Positions 48,496-50,005 of a DNA stretch of 64,000 nt are shown here, piece after piece (within the stretch, counting starts at the first letter, position 1; each line of letters begins with the position of its first letter). Source of the DNA: Bolinopsis microptera (lineage: Eukaryota; Ctenophora; Tentaculata; Lobata; Bolinopsidae). The stretch is taken from positions 19,337,919-19,401,918 of the forward strand of contig NC_087076.1 in NCBI RefSeq assembly GCF_026151205.1, read 5' to 3'. Both the position numbers and the translations under genes were made by a program. Below the pieces are notes generated by a model. That model was not told where the DNA came from. It worked only from the letters and a program-made list of their open reading frames with translations, and searched no databases.

Positions 48496-50005
48496 CTGGT
48501 CATGGATGTAGGAGCTGAAGTGATCGTCGTGAGTGAGGATTAGAAGTATTATGAGTACCATGTACATGTGGTGGGTACTGTGCTGCTCAGCCTCGTAAAC
48601 CACGTGCAACATCGGCATCAACATTCTCTCCACATCTGTCCTAGACAACAGGAACGCTTTGACATTCACATTACCCTGGAATTTAAATAGAATTTAAGCT
48701 GAATTCAGAATATCACCTGAATAAGTGTGTAAAGATAAGAATATCACCTGAATAAAAGTGTAAAGATAAGAATATCACTTGAATAAAAGTATAAAGATAA
48801 GAATATCACCTGAATAAGAGTGTAAAGATAAGAATATCACCTGAATAAGAGTATAAAGATAAGAATATCACCTGAATAAGAGTGTAAAGATAAGAATATC
48901 ACCTGAATAAGAGTGTAAAGATAAGAATATCGCCTGAATAAGAGTGTAAAGATAAGAATATCACATGAATAAGAGTATAAAGATAAGAATATCACCTGAA
49001 TAAGAGTGTAAAGATAAGAATATCACCTGAATAACAGTGTAAAGATATGAATATCACTTGAATAAGAGTATAAAGATAAGAATATCACCTGAATAAGAGT
49101 GTAAAGATAAGAATATCACCTGAATAAGAGTGTAAAGATAAGAATATCACCTGAATAAGAGTGTAAAGATAAGAATATCACCTGAATAAGAGTGTAAAGA
49201 TAAGAATATCACCTGAATAAGAGTGTAAAGATAAGAATATCACCTGAATAAGAGTGTAAAGATAAGAATATCACCTGAATAAGAGTGTAAAGATATGAAT
49301 GTCACCTGAATAAGAGTGTAAAGATAAGAATATCACTTGAATAAAATTGTAAAGATAAGAATATCACTTGAATAAAAGTGTAAAGATAAGAATATCACCT
49401 GAATAAGAGTATAAAGATAAGAATATCACCTGAATAAGAGTGTAAAGATAAGAAAATCACCTGAATAAGAGTGTAAAGATAAGAATATCACCTGAATAAG
49501 AGTGTAAAGTAGCAAGGTGTCTTGTTCGTTAGTGTGCTCAGGGTCTCTACAGAAGTAACTATAAAGTAAGTCCAGGTCCATAACGAAACAAGTCTCGTTA
49601 GCATTACTACTAGGTTCCTTGTGACCAAAGGAGCAAAGTGCACGCTTGTAAGGGTTATCAGAGAGGGATGAGTGATTAGTGAGAAGGAGGACGAGGAGGA
49701 GACACTCCTTGAAGAACTGAGTGTCCGAGTAGAGGGGCTTGTCAGATCCAGAGAAAGGAACGTAGCTCCACAAATAGCTGGCAACTGTAGTTACTTGAGG
49801 TAGGGGCTGATGCACAGAATTAGTTATCAGTGTCTGGATAAGTTGAGGAGCAGAGCTGCTACAGCGTCCTGTCATCATATCAGTAAGATAGGGGGAGGGG
49901 GAGGAGGAGGAGGAGGGGGAGGGGGAGGGGGTGTGGTAGAGCGGCGAAGAGAGGAGAGTGGTCAGTATCTTCACACATTCGCTGTGTACTTGGATTGTAT
50001 CCAGC
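48496..50005 (-). CDS. DYM: Dymeclin, two internal exons
   Basis: Exon 50005-49492 and exon 48675-48496 join in phase 0 to give 231 residues. Matches to vertebrate dymeclin recalled from memory are clear: DTLLLYTLIQ for its ATLLLYTLLH, AFLLSRTDVERMLMPMLHVVYE for its [22 protein letters not shown], and [26 protein letters not shown] for its [25 protein letters not shown]. Dymeclin is a Golgi-associated peripheral protein of about 670 residues, so the N-terminal and C-terminal parts are missing; I found no neighbouring exons on either side. A Ser/Pro tract (PSPSPSSSSSPSP) comes from a GGGAG microsatellite within the first exon. It may be a fragment, or its other exons may lie beyond the repeats. 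Confidence 0.85.
48707..49511. repeat. DYM: 31 bp minisatellite built from the dymeclin splice junction
   Basis: About 26 units of AAGAATATCACCTGAATAAG-AGTGTAAAGAT fill nearly the whole dymeclin intron. On the coding strand each unit reads TTACACTCTTATTCAG then GTGATATTC, which is exactly the end of the upstream exon and its 5' splice site. The last unit is the real exon edge. Some units carry CTTG instead of CCTG and so lose the CAG-GTG junction. Confidence 0.9.

Follow-up and report, generated by a model that had tools for sequence, protein, structure and literature searches.

How does an intron come to consist almost entirely of copies of its own 5' splice site, and which of those copies would the spliceosome use? 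This question is raised by a 64,000-nucleotide stretch of the ctenophore Bolinopsis microptera (contig NC_087076.1, here C5, positions 19,337,919 to 19,401,918; hereafter, the window), in which two exons of the gene for dymeclin are separated by an intron filled with a tandem repeat. An earlier reading, made from the letters of the window without database searches (the sequence-only reading), had connected this repeat with the birth of introns through duplication of an AG-GT segment. Our analyses indicated that the array is a mirage minisatellite, a kind already known in amphioxus, of which the dymeclin case is a new instance. They also showed that the window carries a young partial duplicate of about 1.66 kb, composed of two exons and the array intron, and that the dymeclin gene itself lies on another contig, C2.

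Structure of the array

The features of the duplicated dymeclin block are given in window coordinates.

48350 to 50023, minus strand (C5:19386268-19387941): duplicated block common to the window and C2 (L009, about 6468-8156), its outer end read by eye.
49492 to 50005, minus strand: copy of dymeclin exon A, 514 nt, open frame, ending ...LLLYTLIQ at the junction (PF09742 match, C5:19387410-19387919).
48676 to 49491, minus strand: intron, GT..AG, phase 0, 816 nt (824 nt on C2), placed from the sequence, the unit ends and the C2 gene model.
48707 to 49509, minus strand: minisatellite of 26 units of 31 bp, each unit joining 17 nt of exon tail to 14 nt of donor, from Tandem Repeats Finder (TRF) and in-register cutting.
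48676 to 48706, minus strand: 3' end of the intron beyond the array, carrying the true acceptor AAATTCCAG.
48496 to 48675, minus strand: copy of dymeclin exon B, GNVNVKAFLLSRTD...SSYIHDQ (PF09742 match, C5:19386408-19386596).

TRF detected 25.9 copies of a 31-bp repeat at 48707-49509 with 95% matches, and cutting in register yielded 26 units, in agreement with the sequence-only reading that about 26 such units fill the intron. The identification of the neighbouring exons as dymeclin was likewise borne out by the PF09742 matches to exons A and B. On the minus strand, exon A ends in CTTTACACTCTTATTCAG and the intron starts with GTGATATTCTTATC. The repeat unit was found to comprise the final 17 bases of the exon and the initial 14 bases of the intron, as the proposal that each unit repeats the exon tail and the donor had implied, and the tandem repeat thus spans the exon-intron boundary. 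Unit 1 of the 26 is the real junction, with the exon tail TTTACACTCTTATTCAG and the donor GTGATATTCTTATC. Units 1 to 25 are each 31 bp long in the window, and the same is true of C2 except for unit 21, which has 39 bp. Of the 26 units, 21 on C2 and 20 in the window retained the composite CAG/GT (a slash marks the junction), so that many copies carry AG/GT signals; the variants were units 5, 6, 15 and 24 (CAA/GT), unit 18 (CAT/GT) and, in the window, unit 19 (CAG/GC). The final 31 bases of the intron, including the true acceptor, lie outside the array.

The strength of these sites was scored with matrices derived from further splice sites in the genome, placed by hand from protein matches, phase and the GT-AG rule. 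The first unit, which is also the common one, ranked at the 61st percentile as a donor and at the 70th as an acceptor, which upheld the suggestion that a unit could pass for an acceptor, and the unit conformed to the pyrimidine-AG/GT composite of recursive sites. The real acceptor of the array intron scored at the 80th percentile.

The complete gene on C2

When the whole genome (264.65 Mb in 232 contigs) was searched with Pfam, 15 dymeclin-family matches were returned, situated on C2, C5 (the window) and C6. Only two were present on C5, at profile positions 178-378 and 378-442; C2 carried the same two together with the C-terminal part. Eleven exons on C2 (region 2.8026-2.8095 Mb) could be joined by splice signals and phase into an open frame of 671 codons, using the first donor of the array, and the product matched PF09742 over residues 1-653 with an E value of 1.1e-141. 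The donor of intron 4 was ambiguous in this model because it lies within an array of its own. The supposition that the window holds the dymeclin gene was therefore not sustained, as only two exons were found there and the full gene is on C2.

The window segment 48365-50023 was 98% identical to C2 by BLAST, with the outermost 18 bases lying past a 20-nt gap. Both arrays had 26 units, with the variant units in identical order. In this one pair of paralogues, change in the array since the duplication consisted of point changes and one 8-bp insertion, with a constant number of units.

Proposed origin of the array

We regard it as very probable that the array is a mirage minisatellite in which a duplication spanning the junction grew within the intron, that its first donor is used and that it originated on C2 before being copied to C5. 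A tandem duplication would have chanced to cross the exon-intron junction, copying 17 exon and 14 intron bases, and would then have grown within the intron to 26 units, presumably being tolerated there. The transcript would pair the first, exon-attached donor with the sole acceptor outside the array, and the other copies would leave with the intron. The expansion would have taken place in the full C2 gene, from which a 1.66-kb piece with two exons and the array would later have been copied to C5; this direction is suggested because the remaining exons were detected on C2 alone. The exon tail encodes LLLYTLIQ within the full-length dymeclin and aligns with LLLYTLLH of what we take to be the human dymeclin sequence (agreeing at 9 of 10 published residues). 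These two observations indicated that the exonic portion is long-standing coding sequence from which the array was copied.

Several repeat systems provide points of comparison. A human minisatellite reportedly supplies multiple splice donors, going by the title of a report cited in PMC2572611. Its unit is reported to be about 12 bp and the extra donors to be used, and it is not known to have an acceptor role. Amphioxus mirages, described as minisatellite-like tandem duplications of exon-intron boundaries, occur in Adh3 (units of 10-72 bp), the globins BflGb6 and BflGb9, and PGBD5 (PMC3087553, PMC3902484); splicing seems undisturbed by them, and length instability has been reported (PMC3087553). 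The dymeclin array resembles these in that many units carry AG/GT signals and the repeat spans the boundary, and it differs in affecting another gene and in having equal numbers of units in two paralogous copies. In fission yeast, exon arrays of a 24-bp AGGT segment have been described in which introns extend over the duplicated copies (Zhu and Niu 2013, cited in PMC4974935). Multiple tandem AGGT copies and an intron are common to both cases, but the fission yeast arrays copy an exonic segment and the intron crosses the copies, whereas the dymeclin unit spans the junction and the acceptor is outside the array. Minisatellite-type repeats with units of about 30 bp have been linked to intron/exon changes in paralogues within human segmental duplications (PMC2812944); their number varies between paralogues, whereas it is 26 in both dymeclin arrays.

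Three observations weighed against the proposed origin as a mirage. The identical copy numbers of the paralogous arrays (26 and 26) contrast with the instability in length that mirages are reported to have (PMC3087553). A TRF-based count of arrays at splice sites, presented in the next section, hinted at a preference for donors, yet five of the eight donors concerned are in the dymeclin gene, where the phenomenon was first noticed. Finally, units that combine donor and acceptor at a single site (2 of 142, one of them from the array under study) exceeded the mean of 0.29 for shuffled units, and only 3 of 100 shuffles reached 2.

Frequency of tandem duplication at splice donors

Splice donors could alternatively be hot spots of tandem duplication in this genome, through R-loops, U1 or another transcription-linked process. 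The TRF count favoured this explanation: of 39 introns, 8 had an array touching the donor and 1 had an array touching the acceptor, where random placement gave 3.3 and 3.4, and 8 donors were reached in 47 of 5000 random placements, while 570 of 5000 had one acceptor or none. Arrays also touched a donor in two of seven kinesin genes. This count omitted 3 of the 42 listed introns, whose anchors were not located (K47-3, K49-5 and K51-3), and the kinesin introns K49-3, K50-2 and K51-2 were absent from the list.

A direct search for copies of the junction did not repeat the signal. Seven donors were added for this search (six from the C6 gene and one from a kinesin), one of which, the C6 donor with a 12-bp array, had been chosen for its array. 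With a segment of -3 to +15, a nearby copy accompanied 6 of 46 donors and 2 of 42 acceptors; none of the 46 exon points had one, and the share among points in intron interiors was 11-13%. With -10 to +10, the corresponding values were 3 of 46, 2 of 42, 0 of 46 and 12-13%. Across six segment settings, donors ranged from 7 to 15% and interior points from 11 to 14%. Three of the six donors with copies at -3 to +15 belonged to dymeclin and one had been found via its array, leaving 2 of 35 among the others. With dymeclin excluded, the -10 to +10 segment was repeated nearby at 1 of 37 donors and 1 of 33 acceptors, and the rate for interior points was 7.5%.

Arrays that had not been selected for a splice site were also without a donor excess. 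A sample of 142 arrays was drawn from 276 kb of other sequence of this genome, among which were the window and parts of the C6 gene. Of their units, 19 carried a donor-like and 8 an acceptor-like site, compared with 18.7 and 8.8 in random genomic segments, and neither kind of site alone was in excess over shuffled units (28 of 100 shuffles reached each value). For the two units with both sites in one place, the genomic-segment null was 0.75, and 20 of 100 draws reached 2. These results indicated that donors are crossed by tandem duplication at roughly the frequency with which it arises in introns. We consider a donor hot spot unlikely; the TRF count looked significant, but the direct copy searches with six settings gave donor rates comparable to those of interior points, and the hot spot was rejected on these grounds.

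Consequences for splicing

The outcome of using a later donor was computed for the C2 gene. If splicing starts from the donor of unit k+1 in place of the first, k units are retained, and all 25 modelled products reached a stop codon 11-23 codons past the junction, so that the frame problem anticipated for use of a wrong copy was confirmed in the model. Intact units also score as acceptors, and the retained blocks are therefore mostly GT..AG (20 of 25 cases); excision of such a block would restore the exact junction. The shortest of 42 measured introns had 119 nt, and blocks of one to three units (31-93 nt) fall below this length and may thus be too short for re-splicing. The sequence-only reading had held that splicing must choose one exact donor. 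This was too strong, given the 20 blocks whose removal would restore the junction, although those of one to three units are shorter than any intron measured.

The first donor is most likely the one that is normally used, with the remaining copies removed as part of the intron, and stepwise or repair splicing through the array copies is possible. An array functioning as a self-correcting splice lattice would go further: intact units would serve as zero-length recursive exons, the intron would be removed stepwise through the AG/GT copies in any of many orders, and most errors, including retained units, would be undone by a further splice. Recursive splice sites, or ratchet points, are AG/GT composites preceded by pyrimidines; the dymeclin copies differ from these in being many, 31 nt apart and in a short intron, and their use is putative. 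A literature search linking recursive splicing or ratchet points with tandem repeats found nothing. The retention of CAG/GT in 21 of 26 C2 units, the percentiles of the common unit as donor (61st) and acceptor (70th) and the 20 of 25 blocks whose removal restores the junction are consistent with a lattice, but the 31-nt unit is far shorter than the 119-nt intron, so that each step would need at least four units. Furthermore, arrays with dual AG/GT sites were not clearly above chance (2 of 142, a value reached by 20 of 100 genomic and 3 of 100 shuffled draws). A working lattice was consequently judged to be distinctly unlikely.

Age of the intron

The proposal that the intron itself arose from duplication of an AG-GT segment corresponds to the Rogers model, in which duplication of an exonic AGGT would have made donor and acceptor together, after which the array ran on. 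The co-location of donor and acceptor signals in the unit is what this model would lead one to expect, but the acceptor of the array intron is outside the array. The start of exon B was no more similar to the unit than shuffled sequence (P = 0.98, with 40 exon bases compared), and a comparison of the 31-base intron tail plus 30 exon bases gave a shuffle P of 0.07. Neither the true acceptor nor the first part of exon B is thus a recognisable copy of the unit, and intron birth through AG-GT duplication was accordingly not supported.

The position of the intron was then compared with those of related genes. Alignment to the presumed human sequence placed the array intron after human codon 357, and C2 introns I7 and I9 mapped to human intron positions 417 and 582. 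Human DYM has introns after codons 375 and 417 (IVS10 1125+1 and IVS11 1252-1; PMC9956627), and the array intron coincided with none of the seven human introns tabulated in that report. This difference in position would fit a separate birth, but IVS8 and IVS9 are not among the seven, so that the intron may be shared with human. The divergent family member on C6 has a phase-0 intron about three codons from the position of the array intron in an alignment made by eye. One exon of this C6 gene matched both Dymeclin (1.6e-11) and Hid1 (1.3e-7) in Pfam, and we tentatively call the gene Hid1-like. Overall, birth of the intron from the array appeared very unlikely.

Divergence and surroundings of the window copy

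Global alignment of the window and C2 copies allowed the state of the duplicate to be assessed. Exon A differed by 3 substitutions in 504 aligned bases and one 9-bp in-frame gap, the window copy being 9 bp longer, and exon B had no differences in 179 aligned bases. The array had 5 substitutions in 785 bases plus one 8-bp insertion, and the intron tail outside the array had none in 31. Downstream of the exons, the flank had 5 substitutions in 147 bases and 3 gaps; on the other side of the block, 8 differences were counted in 26 aligned bases that straddle the block end.

It could be argued from these values that the copy in the window belongs, as a live exon pair, to another gene instead of being a dead fragment, as both exons are open, the one 9-bp gap is in frame and their 3 substitutions in 683 aligned bases compare with 5 in 147 in the downstream intron flank. 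The array, however, has as few substitutions as the exons, and the block may therefore simply be young. Among the matches listed in the whole-genome Pfam search, there was no further dymeclin exon on C5, and the surroundings include a 171-bp tandem repeat and dispersed repeats. A live exon pair is highly improbable on this evidence, and the window copy is probably non-functional as a gene.

The 171-bp repeat (8.3 copies by TRF) occupies window positions 46850-48285, about 65 bp from the duplicated block. On the opposite side, about 115 bp of sequence adjoining the block recur about 212 bp further on (50036-50362, by eye), and a dispersed repeat is found at about 50488-50652. A telomere-like array of TCAGGGTTAGGG (19 copies by TRF) is located at 55880-56110.

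An origin from an unrelated dispersed satellite, which the sequence-only reading had named as grounds for abandoning its proposal, was rejected on the basis of a DNA search of the 264.65 Mb in which scores were given to the best candidates only: among the matches listed, array-like DNA occurred at two places, the window and C2, both adjoining dymeclin exons, and further single 14-mer matches numbered 6, compared with 3 for a reversed control pattern.

Other splice-site arrays

Further arrays were observed at splice sites of the C2 dymeclin gene. Intron 4 starts in an array of 13.8 copies of a 41-bp unit (L009 8554-9119, minus strand), with ACG/GT units entering the exon end. Introns 8 and 10 begin with two-copy repeats over the donor (L009 4487-4559 and 3875-3937, with 36-bp and 30-bp units, respectively), and the last part of intron 9 consists of 3.4 copies of a 25-bp unit that repeats the intron's own acceptor (L009 4051-4134).

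Similar arrangements were seen in other genes. A kinesin gene (L049, C12:14833200-14836900) has arrays of 21.7 copies of 13 bp and 29.6 copies of 21 bp at or just past a donor, as well as a third array inside an intron and an apparent duplicated exon start. In another kinesin intron (L051, C7:4101700-4103600), the first 90-100 bases are degenerate copies of the exon tail and donor TTGAGAG/GTAATT. Kinesin matches lay on contigs numbered as high as C13, which suggests 13 large chromosomes, and one ctenophore is reported to have a karyotype of 13 (PMC8527503). A search for array-bounded exons in the 276 kb gave 224 candidates, of which 49 were above the codon-score cut and were read by eye, and two cases emerged. 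The first is an exon of the Hid1-like gene (L031, C6, about 13986.9-13987.2 kb, minus strand), which ends TATCAG/GTACTTTG and is followed by 19 copies of a 12-bp unit related to TTTGTCAGGTAC, many of them with CAG/GT. The second is a possible OCRE-type exon (L036, minus strand, about 5010-5114) ending AACAC/GTGAGT, with the junction repeated once about 45 bp downstream. When five proteins were compared with Pfam, dymeclin and the C6 exon had matches that passed the cut-off, the OCRE match was below it and two had no match.

Significance

Donor junctions were struck by tandem duplication about as often as intron interiors, and intron birth is not needed as an explanation of the array. Such arrays are accordingly weak evidence for intron gain via AG-GT duplication. 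If a splice lattice did operate, splice-site minisatellites would be tolerated through erasable errors, beyond the first donor winning. Splice-site minisatellites, reported in amphioxus genes, recur in several genes of this ctenophore genome, and the dymeclin array provides a clean natural test of spliceosome choice among many near-identical donors, in two paralogous arrays of known divergence.
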